Below are positions 36,541 through 61,645 of a stretch of 64,000 nt of DNA, in pieces; positions within the stretch are counted from its first letter, which is position 1; the number at the start of each line of letters is the position of its first letter. The position numbers and the translations under genes are program-made. The DNA comes from Mycolicibacterium parafortuitum (lineage in GTDB: Bacteria; Actinomycetota; Actinomycetes; Mycobacteriales; Mycobacteriaceae). A model generated the notes under the pieces. It saw only the letters and a list, made by a program, of their open reading frames with translations, was not told the origin of the DNA and did not search any database. Where the stretch lies: assembly GCF_010725485.1 (NCBI RefSeq), contig NZ_AP022598.1:372001-436000 (forward strand). Reading direction: 5' to 3'.

Positions 36541-37884
36541 TCAGTCGAAGTACTCGCGGTCGGCGGAATGCACCGCCGCGCGTACCGCGGTGGCAAGATC
36601 GGCGACCCGGGCGGGTTCCTCGGGCAGTTGCAGGATCGAGAAGCGCAGCAGCCCTTCGGTGTCGTTGACGAACGATCGGGCACCGGCGGCGGCGACGATC
36701 CCCTGCCGGGCGAGGTTGATCAGCGCCGAGGTCTCGTCGGGCACCCGGACCCAGACGACGAAGCCGTCCGGGCTGGCGGTGGCGCGCAGTCCGACGGCGG
36801 TGAACGCGTCGAGCGCGGACTGCCGCCGCAGCCGGTAGCGGCTGCGGGCGCGGGCCATCGCGAGCCCGATGTCCGGGTCGTCGATCAGGTGGGCCAGCGC
36901 GTTCTGCAGGATGCGGCTGTTGGACGCCATCCCGAAGCTGCGCAGCCGGACGGTGCGTTCGATCAGCTCGGCGCTGCCGCCCAGCACGGCGGTGCGCAGG
37001 TCGATGCCGAACGCCTTGCAGTAGCTGCGGATCCGCAGCACCCGGTCGGGCAGGTGGTGTCCCAGCGAGGCTGGTTCACCGGACGCCAGCGGGCCGGCGC
37101 TGTCGTCTTCGACCACCCAGGCTCCGGTGCCGACGATGTCGGAAAGCTCTTGGGCGCGGGCCGCGGTCAGCGCGCCGGTCATCGCGTAAGCGCCGCTGGG
37201 TTGCAGCACCAGCGCGGTGGCGCCGCGGCGGACAGCGGCCGAGACGGTTTCCACCGTGGGGCCCTGATCGTCGGCGCGGATACCGAACGCCTCGATGCCG
37301 AGCTGGCGCAGGATGTCGAGATAGCCCGGGCTGACCGGTTCTTCGACGCCGACGGGCCCGCCGGACGCCGCCGCGGCGGTCGCGAGCACTACCGCCTCGG
37401 TGCCTCCGCCCACGCAGTTCCATCCCTGCGCGGGAAACGGCCAGCCGCCCTCCACGGCACGCCGCAAGCGGTCGGTGATGTAGGCACGCTCCGGGTTGTG
37501 CAGATCAGTTGTCGCAACGAGACTCTCGGACACCGCGGCGGTCAGGTCGGGCTGCAGCGCCGGATCGGGGGTCACCAGGGCGAGCTCAACGGCGGGCCAG
37601 TCCACGGGCTCGCGGCTGGGCAGCGGCCGGTTCGGGTCGGCGACGACGGTGCCGCCGCGGCGACGGGTGTGCAGCCGCCCGCTGTCTCGGACCCGGCTCC
37701 ACGCGGTCATCACGGTGCCGGGGCTGACCCCGGCGGCGCGGGCGAAGTCCCGGATCGTCGGCAGGTGGGATCCGGGGCGCAGCTCACCGCCGTCGATGAG
37801 CCGGGTCAGCCTGTGCCCCAGGTCTTTCGACGACGTCGCCTGCAGTCGCTGCGCCAGCCAGACGGCGTCGACCTGCTCGGGCAT
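36541..37884 (-). CDS. MocR-type regulator (GntR DNA-binding plus aminotransferase domain)
   Basis: A 447-residue PLP-dependent transcription factor. The N-terminal winged helix covers about residues 15-80 (SHLPTIRDFARAAGVSPGTVMTAWSRVRDSGRLHTRRRGGT) and is followed by a fold-type I aminotransferase domain. The PLP lysine is Lys290 in RIRSYCKAFGIDLR, and PSGAYAMTGALTAARA and VVEDDSAG give the other cofactor contacts. It starts one base after the stop of the last monooxygenase gene, so it is the distal gene of the minus-strand sulfur operon and probably controls it or an adjoining one. The ligand is likely an amino acid or PLP derivative. Confidence 0.9.
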   Translation of the reverse strand: MPEQVDAVWLAQRLQATSSKDLGHRLTRLIDGGELRPGSHLPTIRDFARAAGVSPGTVMTAWSRVRDSGRLHTRRRGGTVVADPNRPLPSREPVDWPAVELALVTPDPALQPDLTAAVSESLVATTDLHNPERAYITDRLRRAVEGGWPFPAQGWNCVGGGTEAVVLATAAAASGGPVGVEEPVSPGYLDILRQLGIEAFGIRADDQGPTVETVSAAVRRGATALVLQPSGAYAMTGALTAARAQELSDIVGTGAWVVEDDSAGPLASGEPASLGHHLPDRVLRIRSYCKAFGIDLRTAVLGGSAELIERTVRLRSFGMASNSRILQNALAHLIDDPDIGLAMARARSRYRLRRQSALDAFTAVGLRATASPDGFVVWVRVPDETSALINLARQGIVAAAGARSFVNDTEGLLRFSILQLPEEPARVADLATAVRAAVHSADREYFD

Positions 37885-37885
37885 G

Positions 37886-39181
37886 TCAGATCCGCTCCGG
37901 CAGACCGAGCCTGCTGCGCAGGTCGTGGTCGGTGGGCGGTTTCCACAGTCCGCGCTCGGCGAGCAGCGGCATCACCTGGTCGGCGAACTGTGCGATCCCC
38001 GATCCGTAGCCGATCATGAATCCGTCGGCGGCGCCGGCGAGGAACCACCGCTCAAGTTCGTCGGCGACGGCCCGCGGTGACGCGGTCAGCGCGAAGTGGC
38101 CGTGCTCCAACGCGATCCGTTCCAGCACCTCGCGCAGCGTGACACCGGGTTCGCGGGCCCAGTTCAGATAGATCTGGGCCCGGCTGCGCCGCCCGGCCGC
38201 GGCCGCCAGTTGCTCGTCGGTCGGCAGGTGCGACGGCGGGATGGGTTCGTCCAGCGGCAGATCGGTGAGCTGGAAGTGCTCGGACTCGCGCAGCACCACC
38301 CGCCGCGCTTTCTCCAGCGCATCCGGGGTGACGTGCCGGGACCGAACCCGGCGGGCGTCGGCGGCGTCGCGGCCCAGGAACGTCCGGAAGCCGGGCATGA
38401 TCAGCACCTCGTCGGGGGCGCGCCCGGTCGCTGCGACCTCCGCGCGCAGCCGGCCCGCGTAGTCGAGCGCCTGCTCGAAGTCGGGTACGGCCACGAACAC
38501 GACGTCGGCGTTGCGGGCGGCGAACGCGATGCCCTCCGGTGATGACCCGGCCTGCACCAGCACCGGCCGCTGCGCCGGACCCGGTTTGTCCAGGGGTCCG
38601 CTGACCGAGAAGCACTCCCCCACATGATCGATGGCCTGCACCCGGGACACGTCGACGTAGCGGCCACCGGCCTTGTCGTCGACGACGGCGGACTCGGGAT
38701 AGCTGGCCCACAGCGCGTCGACGACGTCGAGGAACTCCTGGGCCCGGGCATACCGTTCGGTCGGGGCAGGCAGTTCGCGGAGCCCGAAGTTGCCCTCCCC
38801 GGTGAACGACGTGACGACGTTCCAGGCCACCCGCCCGCCGCTGAGCCGGTCCAGCGACGCCAGCGTGCGGGCCTGGTGGAACGGCGTGCCGAACGTCGTC
38901 GACGCGGTGGTGATGAAACCGAGGTGGCGGGTACGCGCGACCAGCGCGCTGACCAGGGTCGTCGGATCGAACGGCAACCGCGGGTTGAGCTGTTTGACCG
39001 GATCGAAGCCGAGGAAGTCGGTGTAGAACAGCGCATCGAACCCGGCGTCCTCGACCCAGTTCGCGTATGTCGCGTGCTGGTCGAGATCGGTGATGTCGGC
39101 CGGGGTGACGTCCGGTTCGCGCCAGCGGGCAATCGGTCCGAATGCGTGTTCGGACGCCACCAACCGCAGACTGCGCGTCAT
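37886..39181 (-). CDS. NtaA/SnaA/DszA-type FMN-dependent monooxygenase
   Basis: A 431-residue bacterial-luciferase-like enzyme using reduced FMN from a partner reductase. Family landmarks include ATYANWVEDAGFDALFYTDF, SLDRLSGGRVAWNVVTSF, ERYARAQEFLDVVDALW, RPVLVQAGSSPEGIAFAARNADVVF and the C-terminal WFLAGAADGFMIGY. Members act on sulfones (DszA), nitrilotriacetate (NtaA) or N-acetyl-S-(2-succino)cysteine (YxeK); the substrate here is unknown. ATG 39181 overlaps the stop of the upstream paralogue (ATGA). Confidence 0.9.
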   Translation of the reverse strand: MTRSLRLVASEHAFGPIARWREPDVTPADITDLDQHATYANWVEDAGFDALFYTDFLGFDPVKQLNPRLPFDPTTLVSALVARTRHLGFITTASTTFGTPFHQARTLASLDRLSGGRVAWNVVTSFTGEGNFGLRELPAPTERYARAQEFLDVVDALWASYPESAVVDDKAGGRYVDVSRVQAIDHVGECFSVSGPLDKPGPAQRPVLVQAGSSPEGIAFAARNADVVFVAVPDFEQALDYAGRLRAEVAATGRAPDEVLIMPGFRTFLGRDAADARRVRSRHVTPDALEKARRVVLRESEHFQLTDLPLDEPIPPSHLPTDEQLAAAAGRRSRAQIYLNWAREPGVTLREVLERIALEHGHFALTASPRAVADELERWFLAGAADGFMIGYGSGIAQFADQVMPLLAERGLWKPPTDHDLRSRLGLPERI

Positions 39182-40536
39182 CGGCTCAACACACCCGCTC
39201 CCAGTCGGTGCGGCGCCAGGCCGTAGTGCTCGCGCAGCGTGGTGCCCTCGTAGTCCTCGTGGAACACCCCGCGGGTCTGCAGCAGCGGCACCACGTGGTC
39301 GACGAAGTCGGCGAGCACACCGGGTGAACTGGCCACGTGGAGGTTGAACCCGTCGGCGGCGCCGGCCAGGTACCACTCGGTGATCGTATCGGCCGCCTGC
39401 TCAGGGGTGCCGATCACCGACACATGCTGGGTTCCGTTGCGGCGCAGCGCCAGGACCTCGCGGGCGGTCAGGTTGTCGCGGGCCGCGGCATCGAGCAGCC
39501 GGTCCAGCTCGCTGGCAGCGCTGCGGCTGATCTCGGCGCCGGCGATCAGGTGCAACGGCAGCGGACGATCCATGTGGAACTCCGACACCGGGATACCGAG
39601 TTGGCGGGCGAAGAACGACAGCCGCGTCGCGTCCGGGGTCGCCTCGGTCAGCTCATGATGCCGGCGCTGGGCGGCCGCTTCGGTGTCGCCGAGCACGACG
39701 AAGAAGCCGGGCAGCACCTTCATCGTGTCCGGATCACGGCCGGCGTCGGCGGCCCTGCCGCGCAACAGGTTCCGGTAGGTGACACCGCCGTCGAGCTCGG
39801 TCTGGTGGGTATAGACCGCGTCGGCGGTGCGGGCCGCCAGCGCGATCCCGCGTTCCGATGCGCCCGCCTGTACCAGCAGCGGCCTGCCCTGCCGCGACGG
39901 CGGCACCAGCGGCTCCCCGGCGACCTGGAGGCGTGCACCGGCGAACGCGGCGGGCCGGATCGCGCCCGGCCGCAGGTAATCCCCGGTGGCCTTGTCCCCG
40001 GCGATCGGATCCGGTTCCCACGCCTCCCACAGTGTCAGCACCGCGTCGACGAACTCCTCGGCGCGCGCGTAGCGCTCGTCCTTCGGATCCGCCTGCGCGG
40101 CAGAGAAGTTGCGGGCGGGCCGGTCCCCGGCGGTGACGACGTAGTTCCACGCCGCCCGGCCGTCGCTGACAAGGTCCAGCGACGCGACCTGGCGGGCCAG
40201 GTTATAGGGGTCGTTGTAGGACGTCGACGCGGTCCCGATCAGGCCGATCCGCTCGGTGCGCCCGGCGATCGCGGTCAGCGCGATGAACGGGGCCAGCGCC
40301 CGCCACGGGTGGTGCCAGTACGCGTCGTCCCACACCGGGGTGTCGGCGAGGAACACCGCCTGGAACTTGCCGCGCTCGGCGAGTTGGGCGGCCTCCACGT
40401 AGTGGTGATGCGATACGAACCACGATGGGTCGCGCTCGTCGAGCCGCCATGATCCCTTCGCCGTCCCGCCGGGAAGCAGGTTCAGGTTCAGGATCAGGCC
40501 CTGATTGTCGAGGGCACGGTCACGAGATCCGGGCAT
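39178..40536 (-). CDS. NtaA/SnaA/DszA-type FMN-dependent monooxygenase
   Basis: A 452-residue flavin monooxygenase paralogous to its two neighbours. Landmarks are LILNLNLLPGGTAKGSWR, AAQLAERGKFQAVFLADTPVW, SLDLVSDGRAAWNYVVTAG, RPLLVQAGASERGIALAARTADAVYTHQ and WYLAGAADGFNLH. It is closer to the copy at 46798 (shared LNLNLxPGG start and LADTPVW) than to the one at 37886. ATG 40536 is preferred over GTG 40542 because GGAGGG lies 8 bases upstream of the former. The start lies 17 bases inside the preceding gene, so translation is coupled. Confidence 0.9.
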   Translation of the reverse strand: MPGSRDRALDNQGLILNLNLLPGGTAKGSWRLDERDPSWFVSHHHYVEAAQLAERGKFQAVFLADTPVWDDAYWHHPWRALAPFIALTAIAGRTERIGLIGTASTSYNDPYNLARQVASLDLVSDGRAAWNYVVTAGDRPARNFSAAQADPKDERYARAEEFVDAVLTLWEAWEPDPIAGDKATGDYLRPGAIRPAAFAGARLQVAGEPLVPPSRQGRPLLVQAGASERGIALAARTADAVYTHQTELDGGVTYRNLLRGRAADAGRDPDTMKVLPGFFVVLGDTEAAAQRRHHELTEATPDATRLSFFARQLGIPVSEFHMDRPLPLHLIAGAEISRSAASELDRLLDAAARDNLTAREVLALRRNGTQHVSVIGTPEQAADTITEWYLAGAADGFNLHVASSPGVLADFVDHVVPLLQTRGVFHEDYEGTTLREHYGLAPHRLGAGVLSR

Positions 40537-41491
40537 AAGCACGTCCCTCCTTACGGACCGGATCGAGCACTTCCGACACCGTCAGCGACAGACTCGACTT
40601 CCACTGCTCCAGCGTCAGCTTCGCCGGCGCGACCTGCAGCAGCACCTCGTCGACGTAGTCGAGTTCGGGATCGTTGCGCAGCCGTTCGCGCACCAGTTCA
40701 GGGTCGCCGAACCATGGCTCGCCGTCACCGTTGCGGACGTGTGTGTCGATGGCGGTCTGCCCGGCCAGCTTCCGTGCCTCCTCGGTCGTCTCGGCGACGA
40801 TGACCGACCGCGACGCCGCGATCCGCTGGTGTGCACCGGCCTCCGACCGGAACGCGTCGATCGCCTCGCTGTGCCGAGCCAGGTTGCCGTGGTAGTTCAG
40901 CGCTTTCGACGAGCGCAGCAGCAGGTTGTCGCCGACCCGGCCGATCTCGCGGGCGTGCTCCGGATCGCTGGCCACCCGCCACAACCGCTGCGGCAACGTG
41001 CCGGCCGGCGGATACAGCCGGCGTCCGCCACCGAGGTCAGCCCCGTCGAGGATCGTGCGTAGGTGCGCCACCTTGTCGGCGTACACCCGCAACCGGTCGT
41101 CCCAGTCGACGCCGAACGGCCCGAACGCCCAGTCCTCCAGTCCTGAACCGAGACCCAGCTGCAACCGGCCCTGCGACAGCGCATCGGCGATCACCGCATC
41201 CTCGGCGACCCGGATCGGGTTCTCCAGCGTGATCACCACGACACCGGCGCCGAGCTTGATGGTGCGTGTGCGCTGGCTCGCCGCGGCGAGGAACACCAGC
41301 GGCGACGCGATGGTGCCCTTGTCGGAGCGGAAGTGGTGCGAGGTGATCCACGCCGTCGACAACCCCAGCTGCTCGGCGTGCTCGATCAGGTCGAGCCCGT
41401 CGTGGTACTGCCGGACCGGGTCGGCGTGGGTGTCGTTGAGCCGGAAGAAGATCCCGAAATCGGGCAACCCTTCGCTACGACGCGGTGTCAT
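40520..41491 (-). CDS. LLM-class flavin-dependent oxidoreductase
   Basis: A 323-residue luciferase-like protein, shorter than the NtaA-type neighbours and from a different branch. Landmarks are HAEQLGLSTAWITSHHF, LGAGVVVITLENPIRVAEDAVIADALSQGRLQLGLGSG and RLWRVASDPEHAREIGRVGDNLLL. It probably oxidises a sulfur- or nitrogen-containing substrate with reduced flavin. Its start lies within the last 17 bases of the substrate-binding protein gene, the same overlap length as with the next gene, showing tight translational coupling. Confidence 0.87.
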   Translation of the reverse strand: MTPRRSEGLPDFGIFFRLNDTHADPVRQYHDGLDLIEHAEQLGLSTAWITSHHFRSDKGTIASPLVFLAAASQRTRTIKLGAGVVVITLENPIRVAEDAVIADALSQGRLQLGLGSGLEDWAFGPFGVDWDDRLRVYADKVAHLRTILDGADLGGGRRLYPPAGTLPQRLWRVASDPEHAREIGRVGDNLLLRSSKALNYHGNLARHSEAIDAFRSEAGAHQRIAASRSVIVAETTEEARKLAGQTAIDTHVRNGDGEPWFGDPELVRERLRNDPELDYVDEVLLQVAPAKLTLEQWKSSLSLTVSEVLDPVRKEGRAYARIS

Positions 41492-43148
41492 CGCCCAGCC
41501 AGGTGTCGTAGGCGTAGAAGTTCACCATGCCGCGCGGCGCGTCCAGCCACCGCTCGATCTCGTGCACCCGGCTGGTCGCCGCCGCGTTGTAGCGCTCGGT
41601 GTACAGCGGCAGCGTGGTGACCTGGTCGATCAGCGCGTACTGGGCGACCTTGTCGTAGGCGGCCTTGCGGTCGTCCTGTTCGAGGGCGGTGCGTCCGTCG
41701 GCCAGCCAGCCGTCGACCTGCGGGTCCTCCAGCTTCGGGCCGTTGATCGCGCCGCCGGTCTCGTAGATCTTTTCCAGCACCACGCCGATGTCGACGCCGC
41801 CGACCGCGCGCGGGAACGCCTCGTAGGCATTGGTCTCGCGGACCACGTCGACGGTGCCCTCGTCGCGGAACTGCAGATCCACCTCGACGCCGGCGTTGGT
41901 GCGCAGCTCGGCCTGGTAGGCCTCCAGCACGGTGGACAGCGGCGGCTTCGGCTCGGTCGCGATCACCCGCACGGTGAGGCGCTGCCCGGCGGCGTTGGTG
42001 CGGTAGCCGTCGCTGTCACGACCGGTCCAGCCGGCCTCGTCGAGCAGCTTGTTGGCCTCCTCGATGTTGCCGCCGTAGGCGTTCTCGAACTTGGCGTCGT
42101 AGAACGGGCTCTGCGGGCCGACGATGCTCCACGCGCGGTCGGAGCTGCCCTGCAGCACGGTATCGATGATCGGGTTCAGGTCCACGGCCTCGCGCAGCGC
42201 CCGCCGGACCCGCACATCCTTGGTGTTGTCGCCGGTGACGTTGAAGTACAGCGAGTACGGTGACACGTTGGACGGCTTCCACTCGAACTGGAATCCGTCG
42301 ACACCGTCGAACTGGTCGATGTCGGCGGGCGCAACCTGCGCGATCGCATCGACCTCACGCGAACTCAGCAGGCCCGCACGCACATTCGGCTCAGGAACGA
42401 TCTTGACGACGATCTCGTCGAGGTAGGCCGGGCCCTCGTGCTTGGCCAGCGCCGACGGCCACGCGTAGTCGTCGTTGCGGGTGAATCGCAGCTCGGCGCC
42501 CTCGACCACCTCGGAGAGGATGAACGGCCCGGTGCCGGCGATGCCGACACCACCGGCGGCCGCGTCCGGGTTCTGAAGCGACTTCGGCGAGATCTGCGCG
42601 CCCTGGATCGAGGCCAGCGTGTTCAGCCAGTTGGCGGTCGGCTCCGAGAGCACGGTGCGCACGGTGTACTCGTCGACGACCTCGGTGGCCACCAGGTTCT
42701 GGAAGGTGCTCTTCGCCGTCGACGGCGCATATTCCTTATCGGTGATGATCTTGTCGAAGTTCGCCTTCACCGCCGCGGCGTTGAACGGCTCACCGTCGTG
42801 GAACTTCACGTCTTTGCGGAGCGTGAACGTGTAGACCAGCCCGTCGGGCGAGCGCTCCCACTTCTCGGCCAGCCACGGGTGGATCGACTCGTCGTAGTCG
42901 ATCGCGACCAGGCTGTCGAACGCGTTGCGCAGCACCTGCACCTCGACGCAGCAGCCGCGCACGTGCGGATTGAGCCCTTCTTCGGGATAGTCGGCCTGCG
43001 CGACGGTCAGGGTGCCGCCGTGCACGGGCTCGCCGTTTCCGCCGCCACTGGTGGTCTCGCTGCCACAGGCGGTCAGCGCCAGCAGCGCGGCCACGGCAAG
43101 TACGACCCAGCGCAACACCGGGTTCACAGGGTTTCTCCAACGGGACAT
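41475..43148 (-). CDS. Substrate-binding lipoprotein of a peptide/nickel-type ABC importer
   Basis: Family 5 extracellular solute-binding protein of about 557 residues. The signal peptide carries lipobox LTAC, Cys28 as anchor, then a Gly/Ser-rich linker. The domain starts GGTLTVAQADYPEEGLNPH and contains PWLAEKWERSPDGLVYTFTLRKDVKFHDGEPFNA, the hallmark of DppA/OppA-like proteins. ATG 43148 is used; ATG 43160 would add four residues. A 113-base gap separates it from the ATPase gene upstream, the largest gap in the operon. Ligand unknown; the surrounding monooxygenases suggest an organosulfur or amino-acid-derived compound rather than peptides. Confidence 0.9.
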   Translation of the reverse strand: MSRWRNPVNPVLRWVVLAVAALLALTACGSETTSGGGNGEPVHGGTLTVAQADYPEEGLNPHVRGCCVEVQVLRNAFDSLVAIDYDESIHPWLAEKWERSPDGLVYTFTLRKDVKFHDGEPFNAAAVKANFDKIITDKEYAPSTAKSTFQNLVATEVVDEYTVRTVLSEPTANWLNTLASIQGAQISPKSLQNPDAAAGGVGIAGTGPFILSEVVEGAELRFTRNDDYAWPSALAKHEGPAYLDEIVVKIVPEPNVRAGLLSSREVDAIAQVAPADIDQFDGVDGFQFEWKPSNVSPYSLYFNVTGDNTKDVRVRRALREAVDLNPIIDTVLQGSSDRAWSIVGPQSPFYDAKFENAYGGNIEEANKLLDEAGWTGRDSDGYRTNAAGQRLTVRVIATEPKPPLSTVLEAYQAELRTNAGVEVDLQFRDEGTVDVVRETNAYEAFPRAVGGVDIGVVLEKIYETGGAINGPKLEDPQVDGWLADGRTALEQDDRKAAYDKVAQYALIDQVTTLPLYTERYNAAATSRVHEIERWLDAPRGMVNFYAYDTWLGDDTAS

Positions 43149-43261
43149 GTCCAGTTCCATTTCTGAAGGGGGCAGCACGCCGTGTGCCGCCGGGTGGGCG
43201 AAGGGGTTTCTGGCGGGGCTAAATTGTGCTCAGGCGCAACAGGAACAGAGGCGCAAACACG

Positions 43262-44878
43262 TCATAGTGTCGGCACCGCCTTCAGCAGGGCCTGCGTGTA
43301 CGGGTCACGCGGGCTGTCGAAAACCTCGTCGGCGGTGCCCTCCTCGACGACACGGCCTCGGTGCATCACCAGCACCCGGTCGGCGACGTGGTGCACCACA
43401 CCGATGTCGTGCGAAATGAACAGCAGCGCGGTTTTTCGCGCGGCACGGATCTCCAGCAGCAGGTCGAGGATCTGCGCCTGGATGGACACGTCCAGCGCGG
43501 ACACCGCCTCATCGCAGACCAGCAGGTCGGGGTCCGAGCCCAGCGCCCGGGCGATCGACACCCGTTGGCGCTGGCCACCGGACAGCGAGCGCGGATGCCG
43601 GTCGATGACGCCGGCAGGCAGATGCACCAGGTCGAGCAGCTCGCGGATCCGGGCGTCGCGTTCGGCGCGCGCGCGGTGCCCGAGAGCGACTGTCTCGGCG
43701 ATGATCTCGCGCACCGTGTAGCGCGGGTCGAACGATCCGACGGAGTCCTGCGCGACGAGTTGCACGGCGCCCAGCCTGGAGTCGCCGAGCTCGACGTGGC
43801 CGGCGTCGGGGGCGAGCAACCCGGTGACGATCCGCGCGACGGTGGACTTGCCGGATCCGGATTCGCCGACCAGGCCCACGATCTCGGCGCGGTGGATCGC
43901 GAAGGTCACGTTCTCGGCGGCGGTGAACTGCTGCCTGCGGCCCTGCCGATAGAACTTGCCCACGGCGGCCACCTCGGCGACGATCTCTGGTCCTGTCGGG
44001 ACCGGTTGCGGCGCGGGCGCTTCCGGGTCACTGAGCCGGCGGCCCCGGGTGTCGCGGCCGGGGACGGCGGCGACCAGTCGGCGGGTGTAGTCGTGCTGCG
44101 GATTGCCGATCACGTCGGTGACCGGGCCGCGTTCGACGACGCGGCCGTTGTGCATGACGATCACGTCGTCGGCGACCCGGGAGACGACGGCCAGGTCGTG
44201 GCTGATCAACAGCACCGCGCGACCGTCGTCGGCCAGGGTGCCCAGTAGCGCGAGGATGCGGGCCTGCACGGTCACGTCCAGCGCGGTGGTCGGTTCGTCG
44301 GCGATCAGCACGTCGGGGTGCCCGGCCAGCGCCGACGCGATCAGCGCGCGCTGGCGTAGCCCGCCGGAGAGCTGATGCGGATAGTTCTTGCGCCGGTACG
44401 GCGGGTCCGGGATGCCGACCGAGTCGAGCAGTTCCTCGACGGCGGCGACGCGTTCGCGGCGCGGCACCCGCAGCGCCTCGGCCACTTCGGCCTGCACGGT
44501 GCGCAGCGGGTCCAGTGAGGTGAGCGCGTCCTGCAGGACGAACCCGATCTGCGCGCCGCGCACCCTGCGCCAGTCCTTGTCGCGGTATCCGCGGGCGTCG
44601 ACGCCGTGGATGTCGAGTGTGGTGGCCTCGATGCGGCTTCCCTCGCCGGCCAGCCCGACCAGGGTGCGCGCGGTCACCGACTTACCGGAGCCGGACTCGC
44701 CGACGATCGCGAGCACCCGGCCGCGGCGCAGCGTGAAGTCGACGCCGGACACCACCGGCACCGCGGTGCCGTCGGCGGCGCGCACACCGTCGAACGACAC
44801 CGTGAGGCCGGCGACCTCGACGAGCACGTCCCCGGTGCGGTCCTGCGGCGCGGTGAAGATCTCGGACGTGACGGTCAT
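43262..44878 (-). CDS. Fused double ABC ATPase (DppD-DppF type)
   Basis: Both ATPase subunits of a peptide/nickel-type importer in one 538-residue chain. The first domain has Walker A GESGSGKS at about residues 60-67, signature LSGGLRQR and Walker [13 protein letters not shown]. The second has Walker [10 protein letters not shown], signature LSGGQRQR and Walker [13 protein letters not shown], then the terminal [14 protein letters not shown]. Each domain ends with the oligopeptide-transporter C-terminal extension ([16 protein letters not shown]). All catalytic motifs look intact. The ATG overlaps the stop of the DppC gene (ATGA). Confidence 0.95.
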
Positions 44879-45747
44879 GACTGGGCCCTCCGCTCGAAGC
44901 GGCGCTGCAGGTTGCGTCCGGCGATCGACACGCTGACCACGGTGATGGTGATGAACAGCCCTGGGAAGAAGCCGACCCACCACGCGATACGCAGGTCCTG
45001 CCGGGCGTCCGAGAGCATCGAACCCCATTCCGGCAGTGGAGGTGTCGGCCCGAACCCGAGGAAGCTCAGCCCGGCCGCGCCGATGATCGCGGTCCCGATC
45101 CCGAGGGTGGCCAGCACCGGCACCGTTCCCAGCGCGTTGGGCAGCACGTGCCGGAGGGTGCGCCGGGTCGCCGACGCGATCGCCAGCCGCGACTGTGCGA
45201 CGTAGTCCGATTCGCGGACCCGCAAGGTCTCGGCGCGCACCACACGCCCGTAGCGCGGCGCCGACGCGATCGCGATGGCCGCGATGACGTTTCCGGTGCC
45301 GGGGCCGATCAGCGTGATCAGCATCAGTGCGAACAGCAGGTCCGGGAATGCGCCCACGGCGTCGAACACCCGCGAGATCGCTTCGTCGACGCGGCGGTGC
45401 GAGACCCCGGCGATCAGGCCGAGCAGCACACCGATCACCACGGCCAGTGCGGTGGAGGCCACCCCGATCAGGATCGAGTAGCGGGCGCCGTGCACGACGC
45501 GTGACCACACGTCGCGGCCCAGGTGGTCGGTGCCGAAGATGTGCTCGAAGCTGGGTGCGGCCAACGCGTTCGACATGTTGCTGGCCAGCGGGTCGCGCCC
45601 GGTGAACAGCCCGGGGAACAGCACCGCGATCACCAGCAGCGCCAGGATCGACGCGGCGATCAGCAGGCCGGCGTTGCGGAATCCGGTCAGCCCCGAGGAC
45701 AGGGAGCGCCCCGGGAACGCGGAAGTCGTTCTGGGAATCGAGGCCAT
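44875..45747 (-). CDS. ABC importer permease, DppC type
   Basis: A 290-residue inner-membrane permease. The N-terminal helix is followed by the DPLASNMSNALAAPSFEHIFGTDHLGRDVWSRVVHGAR segment diagnostic of DppC/OppC, then five helices with the ATPase-coupling loop ESDYVAQSRLAIASATRRTLRHVLPN and the tail SFLGFGPTPPLPEWGSML. It is coupled on both sides: its start shares a base with the DppB stop and its stop overlaps the ATPase start. Confidence 0.95.
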   Translation of the reverse strand: MASIPRTTSAFPGRSLSSGLTGFRNAGLLIAASILALLVIAVLFPGLFTGRDPLASNMSNALAAPSFEHIFGTDHLGRDVWSRVVHGARYSILIGVASTALAVVIGVLLGLIAGVSHRRVDEAISRVFDAVGAFPDLLFALMLITLIGPGTGNVIAAIAIASAPRYGRVVRAETLRVRESDYVAQSRLAIASATRRTLRHVLPNALGTVPVLATLGIGTAIIGAAGLSFLGFGPTPPLPEWGSMLSDARQDLRIAWWVGFFPGLFITITVVSVSIAGRNLQRRFERRAQS

Positions 45748-46778
45748 CAGCGCACCCTCAGCCTCGGGTCGATCCACAGGTACACGATGTCGACGACGGT
45801 GTTGACCGCGACGTACAGCGCGACGGCCAGCAGCGTGATGCCCAGCACCACCGGCACGTCCTGCCGGGTCACCGCGACGACGGTGGCCTGCCCGATCCCG
45901 GGCCTGCCGAACACCTGCTCGACGATGACGGTTCCGGTGAGCATGCCGCCGACCGACCAGCCGGCCAGCGTGGCCGCCGGGATCAGCGCGTGCCGCAGCC
46001 CGTGCCGGATCTTGAGCTGCCACGGGGAGATCCCGCGCGCCAAAGCGGTGACGGCATAAGGCTGTTCGAGAGACTTCTCGATACCCTCGCGCAGCACCTG
46101 GGACAGCACCGCGGCCAGCGGCAGCCCGAGTGTCAGGCTGGGCAGGATCAGGTTCTCCAGCTTCGACCCGCCGACCACGGGCAGCAGCCCCAGCTGGAAC
46201 GACAGCACGGTGATGAACACGATGCCGAGCCAGAAGGTCGGGATCGACGCGAAGGTGAGCTCACCGAGGAACGCGATGCGCCGCCCGACACCCTTGCGGC
46301 CCGCCGTGGTCACCGACAGCACCAGCGCCACCACGACGGCGATCAGCGTCGCGGCCCCGGTGAGTTGGGCGCTGGCGACCAGCCGGTGGCTGAACAGGAT
46401 GTCGGCGACCGGGACGCGCTGGACATAGGACATGCCGAAGTCGCCCTGCACCAGCCGGGTCAGGAAGTCGAAGTACTGCACCAGCAGCGACTTGTCCAGG
46501 CCCCATTGCGCTTCGATGGTGGCCCGCAGCTCCGGGGTGTCGAATTCGCCCATCAGCAGCGTGACCGGATCGCCCGGGGACAGGTGCACCGCGACGAACG
46601 CCGTGGTGGCCGCGAGCCACAGCACCACGACCGCCGCGAACAGCTTCTCCGCGATGTAGCGGAGCTGGTAGGCGGCACCGGCCCAGCGGCCGGCGTCGCG
46701 GGGCGGCGGGACGCGCCCGGCGTCCTGCGCCACCGCGGCGTCGGGCGGGCTGGTGGGTGAGGTCTCCAGGACGGTCAT
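45747..46778 (-). CDS. ABC importer permease, DppB type
   Basis: A 343-residue permease with six predicted membrane helices. VHLSPGDPVTLLMGEFDTPELRATIEAQWGLDKSLLVQYF after the first helix and the C-terminal VEQVFGRPGIGQATVVAVTRQDVPVVLG are diagnostic of DppB/OppB. The cytoplasmic N-terminus is extended by about 40 Pro/Ala-rich residues before the first helix. Starts 19 bases after the stop of the NtaA/DszA-type gene; stop shares one base with the DppC ATG. Confidence 0.94.
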   Translation of the reverse strand: MTVLETSPTSPPDAAVAQDAGRVPPPRDAGRWAGAAYQLRYIAEKLFAAVVVLWLAATTAFVAVHLSPGDPVTLLMGEFDTPELRATIEAQWGLDKSLLVQYFDFLTRLVQGDFGMSYVQRVPVADILFSHRLVASAQLTGAATLIAVVVALVLSVTTAGRKGVGRRIAFLGELTFASIPTFWLGIVFITVLSFQLGLLPVVGGSKLENLILPSLTLGLPLAAVLSQVLREGIEKSLEQPYAVTALARGISPWQLKIRHGLRHALIPAATLAGWSVGGMLTGTVIVEQVFGRPGIGQATVVAVTRQDVPVVLGITLLAVALYVAVNTVVDIVYLWIDPRLRVR

Positions 46779-46797
46779 CAGACGGTGTGCGCCGGCG

Positions 46798-48177
46798 TCA
46801 GCCGAACGCTGCCTCCCCTACCGTGTGGAGCCGCTTGACCGGCACATGGTTCTCGAACCCGTCGCCCGGGCGCTCCAGGCCGAGGGTGTCGCGCAGCGTG
46901 GTGCCCGGGTACTCGGTGCGGAACAGGCCCTTGCGCTGCAGCAGCGGCACCACGTGGTCGACGAATTCGACGGCGACGTCGGGCAGTTGGGCGGACATCA
47001 CGTTGAAGCCGTCGGCGGCACCGGCGCGTACCCAGGTCTCGATCTGGTCGGCGATCTGCTCGGGGGTTCCGACCGCGGTGACGTGGGTCAGGCCGCCGCC
47101 CTGGCGGGCCAGGATCTGGCGCACCGTGTACTTCTCCCGGCGGGCGGTACTGATCAGCGCCGCGAAATGCCCGCCCTGCGCGCCGAGTTCACCGTCGGCG
47201 GGCACCAGGTCCCACGGCAGTTCCTTGTCCAGCTCCAGTGCCTCGACCGGAACGCCGACCTGCAGCGCCAGCGCGTTGATCGCGAAGCGTTCGGTGTGCA
47301 GTTCGCGCAGCTCGATCTCCCGCTTGCGGGCCTCGGCCTCGGTGGGCGCGACCAGGGTGATCAGGCCGGGCAGCACCCGGACGGTGTCGGGATCGCGGCC
47401 CCAGCCCGCTGCGCGGTCGCGCACGGTGTTGCGGAACGCGATCGCGCCCTCGATGGTCGGCTGCACGGTGTAGACGGCATCGGCGAACCGGGAGGCCAGT
47501 CCGATGCCGTCCGGTGAGGATCCGGCCTGCACCAGCACGGGATGTCCCTGTGGTGAACGCGGAAGGGGCAAGGGCCCAGCGGTGTTGACGTACTCGCCGA
47601 CGTAGTCGACAGCCCGGATCCGCGCCTCGTCGACGTAGGTTCCGGTCTCGCGGTCGGCCACCCACGCGTCGTCGGCCCAGCCGTCCCACAACGCGATGAC
47701 GGCCTCGACGAACTCGTGGGCGCGCTGGTAGCGGGTGTCGTGGTCGAGCCCGTGCTCGCGGCCGAAGTTCCGGGCGACGTCGTCGCCGTTGGTGGCCACG
47801 ATGTTCCACGCGGCACGGCCGTTGGAGATGTGGTCGAGGGTGGAGATCCGCCGGGCCAGGTTGTAGGCCGAGTTGTACGAGCTGGATCCGGTTGCGACCA
47901 GCCCGATGTGGCTGGTGTGTTGCGCGACGGCGGCGAACGCCAGCGTCGGGTCCAGGCCGCGGAACGGCCGGTACTCGCCGCGGTAGCGCCACACCGGGGT
48001 GTCGGCCAGGAACACCGCGTCGAACTTTCCGCGCTCGGCGATCTTGGCGCACTCGATGTAGTGCTCGAGGCTGCTGTATTGGCGGGCGTCACCGCTGCCG
48101 GCGCGCCAGGCGCCGGGGAACACGCCACCGGGAATCAGGTTGAGATTCAGGGTGATCGAGTCGTGGGGGAATGTCAT
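46798..48177 (-). CDS. NtaA/SnaA/DszA-type FMN-dependent monooxygenase
   Basis: A 459-residue flavin monooxygenase. Landmarks: LNLNLIPGGVFPGAWR, CAKIAERGKFDAVFLADTPVW, STLDHISNGRAAWNIVATNG, HPVLVQAGSSPDGIGLASRFADAVYTVQ and WVRAGAADGFNVMSAQL. It is a paralogue of the genes at 37886 and 39178. Placed between a rhodanese and the importer, it is likely to be the first enzyme acting on the imported compound. ATG 48177 follows an AGAAAGG site at slightly long spacing. Confidence 0.9.
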   Translation of the reverse strand: MTFPHDSITLNLNLIPGGVFPGAWRAGSGDARQYSSLEHYIECAKIAERGKFDAVFLADTPVWRYRGEYRPFRGLDPTLAFAAVAQHTSHIGLVATGSSSYNSAYNLARRISTLDHISNGRAAWNIVATNGDDVARNFGREHGLDHDTRYQRAHEFVEAVIALWDGWADDAWVADRETGTYVDEARIRAVDYVGEYVNTAGPLPLPRSPQGHPVLVQAGSSPDGIGLASRFADAVYTVQPTIEGAIAFRNTVRDRAAGWGRDPDTVRVLPGLITLVAPTEAEARKREIELRELHTERFAINALALQVGVPVEALELDKELPWDLVPADGELGAQGGHFAALISTARREKYTVRQILARQGGGLTHVTAVGTPEQIADQIETWVRAGAADGFNVMSAQLPDVAVEFVDHVVPLLQRKGLFRTEYPGTTLRDTLGLERPGDGFENHVPVKRLHTVGEAAFG

Positions 48178-48185
48178 CTGCGGTT

Positions 48186-49028
48186 TTACCTTTCTACCGG
48201 GAAGCCGACGATGCTTCCCCATTCGGTCCAGGAGCCGTCGTACACGCGCACGTTGTCGTAGCCGAGCACCTCCGACAACGCGATCCAGCCCAGCGTGGAC
48301 CGGTGTGACAGCCGGCAGTAGTTGACGATCAAAGAGGTTTCCCCACCGACCTTTTCGTCGACGAGGCGTTGCAGCTCGGCGCGGTCGCGCAGTCGGCCGT
48401 GCTCGTCGAGCAGGTCCCGGAAGAACAGGTGTTTGGCCCCCGGGATGCGGCCGTGCCGCTCGGCACCGTGGTCGATCGGCGCGTTCGGGCCGCTGACCCG
48501 GGCGCCGCTGTACTCCTCGGGGGTGCGGTAGTCGAGCAGTACGACGTCGTCGCGGCCGAGCAGCGCGCGCACGTCGTCACGGCCGATGCGTAGCCGCTGT
48601 TGCTCCTCGGTCGGTTCGGGCACCGGTAGCGGCACGGTCGGCGCGGTGCGCTCGACCGCGGTGTCGGTGCTCAGCCCGGCGGCGCGCCAGGCTTCCAGAC
48701 CACCGTCGAGGTAGGCGATGTCGGTATAGCCGCGCACCCGCAGCGTCCACAGCACGTACGCGGCGAACTGGGTCGGTTCTCCGGCGAGCACGATCCGGGA
48801 GCCCCGGCCGGCGCCGAGTTCGAACAGCCGCCGGGACAGTTCTTCTCCGGTGGCCAGTTCGCGTTCCAGCGGATGCCAGGCGAGGTCCTTCCAGAACACG
48901 GCGGCCGCGCCGGGGATCACGGGTTCGCCTGGGGTGTCGGCGTACACCTCGATCACCGCGAGGTCGGGGTCGTGCAGGCTCGCGTGGAGATCCTCGACGG
49001 AGACCACACTGGTGGTGATCAGGGGCAT
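48186..49028 (-). CDS. Tandem-domain rhodanese (sulfurtransferase)
   Basis: A 280-residue protein with two rhodanese domains; the second is catalytic, with Cys238 in VNYCRLSHRS. The loop CRLSHR fits a thiosulfate sulfurtransferase. The first domain lacks a Cys and is structural, as usual. ATG 49028 is preceded by AAAGGACG. It heads the minus-strand operon, 8 bases from the first monooxygenase, and probably moves sulfane sulfur or detoxifies sulfite/thiosulfate released by the monooxygenases. It is divergent from a second rhodanese at 49251. Confidence 0.92.
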   Translation of the reverse strand: MPLITTSVVSVEDLHASLHDPDLAVIEVYADTPGEPVIPGAAAVFWKDLAWHPLERELATGEELSRRLFELGAGRGSRIVLAGEPTQFAAYVLWTLRVRGYTDIAYLDGGLEAWRAAGLSTDTAVERTAPTVPLPVPEPTEEQQRLRIGRDDVRALLGRDDVVLLDYRTPEEYSGARVSGPNAPIDHGAERHGRIPGAKHLFFRDLLDEHGRLRDRAELQRLVDEKVGGETSLIVNYCRLSHRSTLGWIALSEVLGYDNVRVYDGSWTEWGSIVGFPVER

Positions 49029-49038
49029 GTTCGTCCTT

Positions 49039-49062
49039 TTGTTACAACGCGCTTTGATACAA
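49039..49062. promoter_or_regulatory. Candidate operator: paired TTGNTACAA sites upstream of the rhodanese operon
   Basis: TTGTTACAA (49039-49047) and TTGATACAA (49054-49062) form a direct repeat with a 15-base period, each a near-palindrome. They lie 11-34 bases upstream of the start codon of the minus-strand operon in an AT-rich stretch unusual for this genome, so they may bind the operon's regulator or overlap its promoter. Visual inference only. Confidence 0.35.
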
Positions 49063-49202
49063 AATTCGTTGGGGTGCAAGCACATTAAATGGGCTGCTCA
49101 GCACGAAGTCCATAATTTCTCTTGCCGCGAGAATAATTACGGCCGCGCGATATCCGAGGGTTTTCCTCAGCCGTAGTTTTACCCACGGCACCGCCGTATC
49201 CC

Positions 49203-49218
49203 TATGTTATGAAACATA
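49203..49218. promoter_or_regulatory. Candidate operator / -10 region upstream of the plus-strand rhodanese
   Basis: TATGTT (49203-49208) and AACATA (49213-49218) form a perfect 6-base inverted repeat around ATGA, 33 bases before the ATG at 49251. TATGTT itself matches a -10 hexamer, so a bound repressor would block the promoter. Confidence 0.4.
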
Positions 49219-49250
49219 TTCCGTGAACCAACGACACAAGGGAGCACACC

Positions 49251-50081
49251 ATGAGTGAGGCGGACCGCTCCGCCCACCTGATCGGGCCCGCGGAGTTGCA
49301 GTCGTGGCTTGCCGACCGGCCCGAGACGGTTGTGCTCGACGTCCGGCATGTGATGCCCGCAGACCACGCCGACCGCGACGCGTACCTCGCCGGGCACCTG
49401 CCCGGCGCGCAGTTCGTCGACGTCGACACCGACCTGGCCGGCGCGAGCACCGGCCGCAACGGCAGGCGGCCACTGCCCGGCGCGGCCGAGTTCGAGAAGA
49501 CGGTGCGGCAGTGGGGCATCGGTGCCGACACCCCGGTCGTCGTCTACGGCGCACCGCGCTCCCCCGCCCCGGCGCGGGCATGGTGGCTGTTGACGTGGGC
49601 GGGCGTGGCCGGCGTGCGCCTGCTCGACGGCGGCGTCGACGCATGGCCCGGCGAGCTGCAGACGGGGCCGGTGGACGCGCCGGTGGAGGGGGACTTCGTC
49701 ATCCGCCCGGGCGGGCTGCCGGTCGTCGAGGTCGGCGACGTGCCGTCGTTCGCCGAACGCGGCTTGCTGCTCGACGCGCGGCCGGCGGCGAAGTTCTCCC
49801 ACCCGACCGACCCTGGCGCCGGGCACATCCCCGGCGCGCGCAGTGTCCCGGTGGCCGAATTCTTCGATACCGCAGGGTTTCTGCTCCCTGACGACCGGTT
49901 GCGGGAGCATTTCGCCGCGCTCGGCATCCCGGCCGGCGCCGAACCCGCGGCCTACTGCGGCACCGGGGTGGCCGCCGCGCTCGAGGTGTTCGTGCTCGCG
50001 GTTCTGGGGATCCGGGCGCGCCTCTACGTCGGGTCCGCGTCGGAGTGGACCGCCGATCCGTCCCGTGTGCTCGTTCGGTGA
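49251..50081 (+). CDS. Tandem-domain sulfurtransferase (SseA-like)
   Basis: A 276-residue two-domain rhodanese. The inactive first domain has VLDVRHVMPADHADRDAYLAGHLPGAQFVDVD and the catalytic domain has Cys236 in AYCGTGVAAAL. The CGTGV loop resembles 3-mercaptopyruvate sulfurtransferases (CGSGVTA) and differs from the CRLSHR loop of the divergent copy, so the pair probably has different donors. AGGGAG lies 7 bases before the ATG. The stop overlaps the next gene (GTGA). Confidence 0.9.
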   Translation: MSEADRSAHLIGPAELQSWLADRPETVVLDVRHVMPADHADRDAYLAGHLPGAQFVDVDTDLAGASTGRNGRRPLPGAAEFEKTVRQWGIGADTPVVVYGAPRSPAPARAWWLLTWAGVAGVRLLDGGVDAWPGELQTGPVDAPVEGDFVIRPGGLPVVEVGDVPSFAERGLLLDARPAAKFSHPTDPGAGHIPGARSVPVAEFFDTAGFLLPDDRLREHFAALGIPAGAEPAAYCGTGVAAALEVFVLAVLGIRARLYVGSASEWTADPSRVLVR

Positions 50082-51376
50082 CGCCGCCCACCGAACGTAA
50101 GCGCCGCCTGCTTCTCGATGTCACACCGTTTCGGACCAGCCGCGCGTTCACCCGGCTGTGGATCGGCACGGCGCTGGGCAGCATCGGGCAGGAGATGACG
50201 GTGGTCACCGTCGCGCTGCAGGTCTACGCGATCACGTCGTCGACGTTCGCGGTGTCGTTGATCGCCGGTATCGGGCTCGGCCCGATCATCATCACCGGTC
50301 TCTACGGCGGCACCCTGGCCGACCGCTTCGACCGGCGCCGCGTCGCGTGGATCGCGTCGGTGATCTCGTGGGTCGCGATCGCGGTGCTGGCGGTCCATGC
50401 GCTGGTGGGCGGCACCTCGCTGTGGCTGCTGTATGCCGCCGCGACGGTCAACGCGGCCGCGGGCACCGTCGGCGGCATCACCCGCCGAGCTGTCATCCCG
50501 CGGCTGCTGCCGGCTCACCTGCTGCCCGCGGCCGGCGCGCTGAACGGGATCAACCTCGGGCTGATGGCGACCGTCGGCCCGATGCTGGCCGCCGGTGCGG
50601 TCAACGCCGGCGGCTTCCACACCGCCTACCTGATCGACGTGGTGCTGCACTGTGCGGCGTTCCTCGGCGTGTTCACGCTGCCCGCGTTGCGTCCTGTCGA
50701 AGCGACACAGGCGAATCCGGTGCGCGCGGTCCTCGACGGCGCCGCGTTCCTGCGGCGTGCCCGCAACGTGCGGTTCAGCCTGACCCTCGATGCGATCGCG
50801 ATGGCGCTGGCGCAGCCGCGGGTGCTGTTCCCGGCGCTGGGTGCGGTGACGATGGGCGGCGGGGTCACGACGGTCGGCGTGCTGTCGGCGGCCGGCGCGG
50901 CCGGGTCGGCGCTGCTGGCCTTCTTCTCCGGCTGGACGGGCTCGGTGCGCAGGCAGGGGCAGGCGATCCTGATCGTCACCTACGTCTATGCGGTGATGGT
51001 CGTGCTGGCGGGCGTCATGGTCGCCGTCGCGGCGCTGCGGCCGCATCCCGGCGGGACCAACGTCGCCGCGATCGCCGCGCTGGCGGTGGTGCTGGCGATC
51101 GCCGGTGCGGTCGACAACGTCGGTGCGATCTTCCGGATGGCGATGCTGCAGGCCGCGGTGCCCGACCACATCCGCGGCCGGGTGCAGAGCATGTACACGC
51201 TGATCGTCACCGGCGGGCCACGTCTGGGCGACGTCGTCACCGGTGCGGTGGCCAGCGCGTTCTTCATCTGGAGCCCGCTGCTGGCCGGCGGTCTGCTGAT
51301 GATCGTCGCGATCTGGGTGCTGGCCCGGCGGACCCCGACATTCAAGCACTACGACAGCGACAACCCGACGCCGTGA
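50078..51376 (+). CDS. MFS transporter, EntS-like exporter family
   Basis: Major facilitator of 432 residues with about twelve membrane helices. The loop after helix 2-3, GGTLADRFDRRRVAWIASV, is the MFS motif A. The sequence GGITRRAVIPRLLPAHLLPAAGALNGINLGLMATVGP and the late RGRVQSMYTLIVTGGPRLGDVVTG are typical of the EntS/macrolide-exporter group. It is translationally coupled to the sulfurtransferase by a GTGA overlap, so it could export a sulfur compound produced or tolerated by this locus. The substrate is not deducible. Confidence 0.86.
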   Translation: MTPPTERKRRLLLDVTPFRTSRAFTRLWIGTALGSIGQEMTVVTVALQVYAITSSTFAVSLIAGIGLGPIIITGLYGGTLADRFDRRRVAWIASVISWVAIAVLAVHALVGGTSLWLLYAAATVNAAAGTVGGITRRAVIPRLLPAHLLPAAGALNGINLGLMATVGPMLAAGAVNAGGFHTAYLIDVVLHCAAFLGVFTLPALRPVEATQANPVRAVLDGAAFLRRARNVRFSLTLDAIAMALAQPRVLFPALGAVTMGGGVTTVGVLSAAGAAGSALLAFFSGWTGSVRRQGQAILIVTYVYAVMVVLAGVMVAVAALRPHPGGTNVAAIAALAVVLAIAGAVDNVGAIFRMAMLQAAVPDHIRGRVQSMYTLIVTGGPRLGDVVTGAVASAFFIWSPLLAGGLLMIVAIWVLARRTPTFKHYDSDNPTP

Positions 51377-60835: not shown

Positions 60836-61624
60836 ATGGCACCGACCTCCGTGGAGTCTTCCGTCGCCACAGATGCCATCTCGATTGCAGGGCTCACCAA
60901 GGTCTACGAACGCATCAGCGGGCGTGAGATCGTCCGCACCTATGCGCTGAACGGCGTCGATCTCGCGGTCCGGCCTGAGGAGTTCGTCTCGCTGGTCGGG
61001 CCGTCCGGATGCGGAAAGACCACCGTGCTCAAGGTGATCGCGGGTCTGCTGCCGCCGACCGAGGGCCGCGTCGAAGTCAACGGCACGCCGGTCACCGGGA
61101 CGGGCATCGACCGTGGCGTCGTATTCCAGCAGCCATCCCTGTTGCCGTGGCGGACCGTGCGGCAGAACATCATCGAGTCTCTACGCTTCGCCGGCATACC
61201 CCGAGCGCAGCGCGGCGGCCGCGCCGACAGATACCTCGCGTTGGTCGGACTGGCCGGGTTCGTCGACCACTACCCCGGCGAACTGTCCGGAGGGATGCAG
61301 CAGCGCGTCGGCATCGCCCGCGCGCTGGCCCTGGAACCTCAGGTGCTCCTGATGGACGAGCCGTTCGGCGCACTCGACGCGATCACCCGCCAGCACATGC
61401 AGACCGAGCTCATGCGGATCTGGAGCCAGGAGAAACGTTCGGTCCTATTCGTCACACACTCGATCGAAGAGGCCATGCTGCTGTCGGACCGGGTCGTGGT
61501 GATGTCCGACGGGAAGGTCCGCGCCGACGTCTCCGTCCCGATCGAGCGCCCACGCTCTCGCGCCGAACTGATCAACGATCCGGCGGCACGCGAACTGCGC
61601 ACCCGTCTCGAAGAACTCCTCTAG
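60836..61624 (+). CDS. ATPase of a NitT/TauT-type ABC importer
   Basis: A 262-residue ABC ATPase of the nitrate/sulfonate/taurine importer family. Walker A GPSGCGKT is at about 55-62, FQQPSLLPWRTVRQNI is the Q-loop region typical of SsuB/TauB-like proteins, the signature is LSGGMQQR, Walker B is VLLMDEPFGALD and the switch is VTHSIEEA. First gene of the transporter unit. Such importers carry sulfonates, nitrate, pyrimidine precursors, riboflavin or hydantoin-like ureides, so the family alone does not name the substrate. Confidence 0.92.
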   Translation: MAPTSVESSVATDAISIAGLTKVYERISGREIVRTYALNGVDLAVRPEEFVSLVGPSGCGKTTVLKVIAGLLPPTEGRVEVNGTPVTGTGIDRGVVFQQPSLLPWRTVRQNIIESLRFAGIPRAQRGGRADRYLALVGLAGFVDHYPGELSGGMQQRVGIARALALEPQVLLMDEPFGALDAITRQHMQTELMRIWSQEKRSVLFVTHSIEEAMLLSDRVVVMSDGKVRADVSVPIERPRSRAELINDPAARELRTRLEELL

Positions 61625-61645
61625 ACCACCGAACGGATACCCCAC

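Follow-up and report, generated by a model that had tools for sequence, protein, structure and literature searches.

A rare, conserved operon of flavoenzymes, a Dpp/Nik-type importer and two rhodaneses in Mycolicibacterium as a candidate system for organosulfur acquisition

Several bacterial systems cleave carbon-sulfur bonds with flavin-dependent monooxygenases. In the CmoO/CmoJ salvage of S-alkylcysteines in Bacillus subtilis, two flavoenzymes, one of the NtaA/DmoA family (YtnJ), act on thioether sulfur, and CmoJ uses a flavin-dependent Pummerer rearrangement to cleave the alkylcysteine sulfoxides that CmoO produces (PMC10863075). The S-(2-succino)cysteine pathway (YxeK/scm) pairs an ATP-binding cassette (ABC) transporter with a C-S-cleaving flavin mononucleotide (FMN) monooxygenase and uses N-acetylation and deacetylation; the paper on it nowhere uses the word rhodanese (PMC9706529). 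In the 4S pathway (DszABC), the C-S-cleaving enzyme of the NtaA/DmoA family is DszA. Finally, the uncharacterised TIGR04028/TIGR04027 operon (named after KPN_01854 and KPN_01858; found in Pantoea sp. SO10 and Rhizobium tumorigenes) combines, in one run, a short luciferase-like monooxygenase (LLM) with a binding protein, an ATP-binding protein and two permeases. Here we describe a locus with features of each of these in the single-contig, 6.04-Mb genome of Mycolicibacterium parafortuitum. It lies within positions 372001-436000, the 64,000-nt stretch analysed here and called the window. The locus is a real, conserved and rare operon, and there is about an even chance that its role is to take up a small thioether and cleave the C-S bond oxidatively.

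The operon is a minus-strand run of ten tightly packed genes (36541-49028) with a divergent rhodanese gene, rhoB (49251-50081). The features are given below in the reading direction of the run, followed by those on its other side.

48186..49028, minus strand: RhoA, double-domain rhodanese, thiosulfate-sulfurtransferase-like, loop CRLSHR (two PF00581 stretches; PDB relatives)
46798..48177 (open reading frame (ORF) opens at 48222), minus strand: LLM1, NtaA/DmoA-family FMN monooxygenase, conserved core enzyme (TIGR03860)
45747..46778, minus strand: DppB/NikB-type permease (family search)
44875..45747, minus strand: DppC/NikC-type permease (family search)
43262..44878, minus strand: fused DppD-DppF-type ATPase of 538 amino acids with two ABC_tran stretches (family search)
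41475..43148 (ORF opens at 43178), minus strand: substrate-binding lipoprotein-like protein, SBP_bac_5, distant TIGR04028 relative (PF00496)
40520..41491, minus strand: LLM2, short luciferase-like flavoenzyme (Bac_luciferase), distant TIGR04027 relative (family search)
39178..40536, minus strand: LLM3, NtaA/DmoA family, accessory, LLM1 clade (TIGR03860; tree)
37886..39181, minus strand: LLM4, NtaA/DmoA family, accessory, outside the operon clade (TIGR03860; tree)
36541..37884, minus strand: MocR-type regulator, GntR plus aminotransferase-like domain (PF00392 and PF00155)
49251..50081, plus strand: RhoB, 3-mercaptopyruvate-sulfurtransferase-like rhodanese, loop CGTGVA (two Rhodanese stretches; similarity)
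50045..51376, plus strand: EntS-like major facilitator superfamily (MFS) transporter ORF, overlapping the end of rhoB (MFS_3; EntS model match on the homolog in locus L020)
49029..49250, no strand: divergent control region between rhoA and rhoB, with sites conserved in close relatives (sequence comparison)

All eleven genes lie where the first-pass annotation of this DNA had placed them, and its family calls (three NtaA/DszA-type monooxygenases, one other LLM flavoenzyme, a Dpp-type importer with fused ATPases, MocR and two rhodaneses) agree with ours. The likely start codons of rhoA (49028), LLM1 (48177) and LLM4 (39181) were revised. Neighbouring genes overlap or are separated by 1-19 nt, except ahead of the binding protein, where 83 or 113 nt, depending on the start codon, separate it from the ATPase. 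Consensus scans, which are weak evidence, found no sigma-70-like site and no terminator-like site on the minus strand (two terminator-like sites in all, both on the plus strand, with 4.0 expected by shuffling). Among named organisms, close relatives of this locus occur in Mycolicibacterium parafortuitum (RhoA, 91%) and M. vaccae NBRC 14118 (binding protein, 96%).

Compared with the described systems, the operon differs from CmoO/CmoJ in that its proteins include no N-acetyltransferase or deacetylase family, rhodaneses being present instead, and in that LLM1 falls outside the CmoJ clade; by analogy it may work like that pathway, yet it is not a member of it. The acetylation and deacetylation of the YxeK/scm pathway set that system apart in the same way, and neither DszB nor DszC of the 4S pathway is matched by any protein of the operon. 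Relative to the TIGR04028/TIGR04027 operon, the window proteins reach about half of the cut-off scores (binding protein, 214.5 bits on TIGR04028 versus 468.5; LLM2, 208.1 bits on TIGR04027 versus 412.9), alkylhydroperoxidase and VOC genes are missing, and rhodaneses and NtaA/DmoA enzymes are present. The first-pass annotation had known of no named pathway with this exact set. That holds for the exact set, although the importer with a short LLM is a known, uncharacterised pairing. No paper on this gene set turned up in the literature searched, which mostly leaves out subscription journals. A TIGR04027-type flavoenzyme was also seen in Paracoccus denitrificans (L135:7977-10200) together with CMD and alkylhydroperoxidase genes; the incomplete gene table for that region lists no TIGR04028 importer close by.

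Ten Mycolicibacterium loci could be seen end to end: the window, G566, G613, G615, G362 and L020 to L024. An eleventh (L019, M. vaccae NBRC 14118), whose contig ends inside dppB, was left out of the counts; it has MocR and lacks LLM3 and LLM4. All ten loci hold the two rhodaneses, LLM1, LLM2 and the importer (binding protein, ATPase and the two permeases). MocR is present in nine, including G613, and absent from L024 (contig LT549889, labelled M. aurum). LLM3 and LLM4 are accessory, since they are missing from five and seven of the ten loci, respectively. The earlier argument that four flavoenzymes in one unit suggest several linked substrates or steps therefore falls. In L023, a relic of LLM4 of about 46 residues (60% alike) lies between LLM2 and MocR. 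The gene order recurs across Mycolicibacterium and, rearranged, in Rhodococcus, Nocardia and Gordonia; the gene set is therefore not a chance assembly. We rejected the possibility that the operon is common in this group, as few matches were found in genome samples at the family, order, class and phylum levels, which overlap and each include the window genome. The genomes matched numbered one of 201 in the family for LLM2 (E ≤ 1e-60); for a RhoA profile, 4 of 397 in the order (E ≤ 1e-70) and 1 of 396 in the phylum (E ≤ 1e-60); and, with a Pseudonocardia RhoA as query, 3 of 394 in the class.

Outside Mycolicibacterium, RhoB, an LLM pair, RhoA and the importer occur together in Nocardia coubleae (L026), N. 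rosealba (L028) and Gordonia sp. ABSL11-1 (L029). In these loci MocR faces forward, followed by the LLM2-like gene, the NtaA/DmoA enzyme and rhoB in reverse orientation, and then by rhoA, the importer and the binding protein, again forward. Their LLM2-like matches are partial, covering 66-69% of LLM2 at 32-36% identity. Rhodococcus sp. JS3073 (on a plasmid) and R. jostii NBRC 16295 possess MocR, one NtaA/DmoA enzyme, RhoA and the importer, and in both the gene of the binding protein is followed by that of a PatB-like C-S lyase. The JS3073 lyase scores 240 bits on TIGR04350 (cut-off 340), and the other Rhodococcus copy is 97% alike. The third-position GC of the lyase gene (L014:10855-12099, L025:11947-13191) is 0.59, versus 0.64-0.72 in its operon neighbours; the lyase is perhaps a later arrival in these loci.

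Both rhodaneses consist of two Rhodanese stretches with the cysteine loop in the C-terminal one, as in double-domain rhodaneses. The type of loop presumably sets the donor preference of each. RhoA carries the loop CRLSHR in all operon copies in which the loop is readable (L123 and L125 hold only a partial gene), its best PDB relatives bear the names sulfur transferase or thiosulfate sulfurtransferase, and the solved mycobacterial SseA has CRIGER at this position. Because CRLSHR is also found in 112 of the best 120 of 1729 database relatives of RhoA, it marks a subfamily wider than the operon copies. RhoB is most similar to 3-mercaptopyruvate sulfurtransferase, with the loop C[GS][ST]GV[AS] in Mycolicibacterium and CGSAMA in Nocardia. 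We considered RhoB as a housekeeping bystander and rejected this: it was matched in 8 of 118 genus genomes (E ≤ 1e-50), and copies at least 73% alike occur only in the window genome, G566, G613 and G615, all of which carry the operon, the remaining matches being 43-49% alike. RhoB is a true member of the operon, because it also stands beside the flavoenzyme pair, in the same orientation, in Nocardia and Gordonia. The first-pass annotation was thus right to count the divergent gene with the system. Searching plasmids for the rhodanese by tblastn gave, in the 30 of 37 records listed, a 49% match in JS3073 and otherwise just matches of 30-35%.

To place the importer in its wider family, we searched genome contigs with a profile of the binding-protein alignment, confirmed 136 places and kept the best 80, yielding 75 loci, in which neighbours were counted within 9 kb of the binding protein. 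An NtaA/DmoA match was found in 57 loci, a second LLM in 46 and both in 44. A GNAT acetyltransferase occurs in 38 loci, 36 of them proteobacterial by title, the other two being Luteimicrobium album (L030) and a contig labelled Mycobacterium sp. KBS0706 (L061). The GNAT of L061 is 72% like that of Agrobacterium, and this contig is perhaps mislabelled or contaminated. RhoA was found in nine loci, all from Mycobacteriales, and RhoB in eight. Rhodanese and GNAT never occur together in the 75 loci, and two GNAT queries gave no match in any of the nine rhodanese-bearing ones. Conversely, loci of Agrobacterium (L016), Brucella (L031) and Burkholderia (L059) combine an importer of this family with NtaA/DmoA enzymes and a second LLM, and have GNAT and no rhodanese match. 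The two rhodaneses stand where many related importers have an acetyltransferase. This split partly follows descent. It is not simply one of actinobacteria versus proteobacteria, because many other actinobacterial loci, e.g., several from Nocardia and Streptomyces, have neither.

Among solved structures, the binding protein is nearest to the NikA type, and the family search likewise placed it as NikA/CntA-like. An alignment with E. coli DppA and NikA shows that it has no counterpart of the DppA segment WTGD, which we take to hold the peptide amino group. Because this segment is absent, an ordinary peptide appears less likely as the ligand.

LLM1, LLM3 and LLM4 all score above the TIGR03860 cut-off of 279.7 bits (469.3, 429.0 and 372.8, respectively), as do five further proteins of this genome, giving eight NtaA/DmoA proteins in total. 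In a FastTree phylogeny of 55 rows from selected loci, in which some paralogs from this genome appear twice because loci overlap, LLM1 and LLM3 form one clade with the Rhodococcus, Nocardia and Gordonia enzymes (support 1.0). This clade lies apart from CmoJ, DszA and NtaA, with LLM4 outside of it. Grouping with CmoJ (0.93) are one importer-linked enzyme each from Pantoea (L017) and Comamonas (L043) as well as two from Paenibacillus (L081). Reduced flavin for the operon enzymes could come from the proteins of five Flavin_Reduct matches at other places in the genome. Two further tandem NtaA/DmoA gene pairs were noticed in this genome, at 898694-901299 (C1) and 3470337-3472915.

The theme of sulfur proposed from the first reading is strengthened by the two co-conserved rhodaneses, the PatB-like lyase of the two near-identical Rhodococcus loci and the position of some importer relatives beside CmoJ-like enzymes. 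As a working model of substrate, reaction order, sulfur acceptor and regulation, we suggest that the binding protein and the Dpp/Nik-type ABC system would take up a small organosulfur compound that is probably not a peptide; a thioether is most likely, for example an acid resembling an S-substituted cysteine. Given reduced flavin from another source, LLM2 and LLM1 would oxidise this compound and split its C-S bond; by analogy only, this might proceed as sulfoxidation followed by cleavage, as by CmoO and then CmoJ, with LLM2 in the place of the sulfoxidase. RhoA and RhoB, by similarity of the thiosulfate and the mercaptopyruvate type, respectively, would then hand the freed sulfur on to an acceptor so that it can be assimilated. 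The operon would be under the control of MocR, perhaps sensing a ligand with an amino group, and LLM3 and LLM4, where present, may widen the substrate range. We regard organosulfur acquisition along these lines, perhaps from an S-substituted-cysteine-like thioether and with sulfur handling by the rhodaneses, as evenly balanced between right and wrong.

Several observations weigh on the other side. In Rhodococcus qingshengii IGTS8 grown on dibenzothiophene without sulfate, two other rhodaneses are down, although two NtaA-type proteins are up (PMC8557817). The Rhodococcus loci lack RhoB and LLM2, the PatB-like lyase is limited to those two near-identical loci, and the locus of Gordonia soli (L027) has the importer, MocR and one NtaA/DmoA enzyme and no rhodanese. 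No LLM at all lies within 9 kb in 16 of the 75 importer loci. As a control, three other binding-protein matches of the genome were inspected: in two cases the search within 9 kb gave no strong NtaA/DmoA match, the third (3479567) has an NtaA/DmoA pair 6.6 kb away, and three matches are too few to prove an enrichment near the importer. LLM1 lies outside the CmoJ, DszA and NtaA clades, and the enzymes of L016, L031 and L059 and the second enzyme of L043 do not group with CmoJ; the chemistry of the known enzymes is therefore not transferable.

Other explanations were weighed against the same evidence. The importer might carry an organosulfonate or sulfone from which the flavoenzymes free sulfite, RhoA making thiosulfate from sulfite and a persulfide. 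The best PDB match of LLM1 is a chain named DszA (272 bits), just ahead of YtnJ (267), the basic, thiosulfate-type RhoA loop presumably suits anionic donors or acceptors, and in Rhizobium tumorigenes an aliphatic-sulfonate transporter adjoins the TIGR04028/TIGR04027 operon. Yet LLM1 is not in the DszA clade, no DszB- or DszC-like family exists among the operon proteins, and the PatB-like lyase and GNAT genes of the relatives point to amino-acid thioethers; we consider sulfone or sulfonate desulfurisation unlikely, though not negligible. Nitrilotriacetate and ethylenediaminetetraacetate monooxygenases are also among the PDB relatives of LLM1, and NikA is the nearest solved relative of the binding protein, so the operon could instead degrade a nitrogenous or chelating compound by C-N cleavage, cyanide or redox tasks being left to the rhodaneses. 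Such a pathway offers no evident role for a co-conserved pair of rhodaneses whose special loop is constant, or for the C-S lyase in Rhodococcus, which makes it decidedly improbable.

The least probable of the explanations, with very little weight in our judgement, is the handling of a sulfur-containing metallophore, in which the EntS-like protein would act as exporter and the Nik-like system as importer, the rhodaneses would give sulfur, and the flavoenzymes would tailor or dismantle the metallophore. It draws on the MFS gene beside rhoB, on the NikA/CntA-like binding protein and on the higher level of the KPN_01858 protein in iron-limited Klebsiella (PMC7194016). Against it, we recognised no gene for biosynthesis in the ORFs translated near the operon, beyond which no further search was made, the Nocardia, Gordonia and Rhodococcus loci have no such MFS match, and the same Klebsiella list includes TauC, which may mean sulfur stress (PMC7194016).

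More specifically, though only tentatively, the thioether reading can be extended to a distinct salvage route in Mycobacteriales, in which C-S cleavage by flavoenzymes would be coupled directly to a pair of thiosulfate- and mercaptopyruvate-type rhodaneses. Sulfenate or persulfide sulfur would be passed on without N-acetyl protection, as a counterpart of the GNAT loci, and the LLM1/LLM3 clade would be a new subfamily of C-S monooxygenases. If true, this would be a second way to recover thioether sulfur after flavin-dependent C-S cleavage, would provide a defined enzyme clade and the rhodanese signature CRLSHR to search for, and would name a few genes to test for a part in the use of organosulfur compounds by environmental mycobacteria and related bacteria.

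The regulator has the GntR domain fused to an aminotransferase-like domain that defines MocR proteins, but it does not reach the cut-off for any of the named MocR-like models listed. Three sites in the control region are shared with close relatives: two near-inverted repeats (49112-49137 and 49203-49218) and, within 49038-49063, a direct repeat. The exact direct repeat was absent from seven other stretches of this genome (L108-L113 and L130), with no whole-genome scan made. We discarded it as a shared sulfur-regulator site, the exact repeat being seen solely in the rhoA/rhoB gap among the stretches compared. In a scan that left out G362, it was missing from L024, which has no MocR, as well as from L023 and G615/L125, whose MocR is 67% and 70% alike. 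The link between MocR and the repeat suggested by L024 is weak, because L023 and G615 keep MocR without the exact repeat.

The EntS-like MFS gene, unnamed in the earlier annotation, adjoins rhoB in all ten Mycolicibacterium loci and is likely a member of the system. A gene pair for a FAD protein (FAD_binding_2) and a 4Fe-4S ferredoxin, which we take to resemble AprAB, lies beside rhoB and the MFS gene in eight of the ten loci and is absent there in the window and G566. This genome has a homolog of the pair at 4.54 Mb, behind an NMT1-type binding protein, a permease and an ATPase. Coordinates for the pair, beside the operon or elsewhere in this genome, are L020:83-1420, L021:89-1770, L122:5467-7298, L123:15497-17128 and L130:7092-9106; in Gordonia L029, a FAD protein and a ferredoxin lie about 8 kb beyond the binding protein, and in G613 a further sulfurtransferase stands beside the pair. 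About 11 kb from rhoB, the window holds an ATPase match and an ORF that by eye looks like a permease (60836-62458), and a similar block is present near the operon in G613 and G566. Genes for an amino-acid permease, an amidohydrolase and a CN-hydrolase follow MocR in L020 (14193-18136), L124 (11169-15150) and L133 (4145-8079), not in the window; this block was seen in reverse orientation in L020 and L124.

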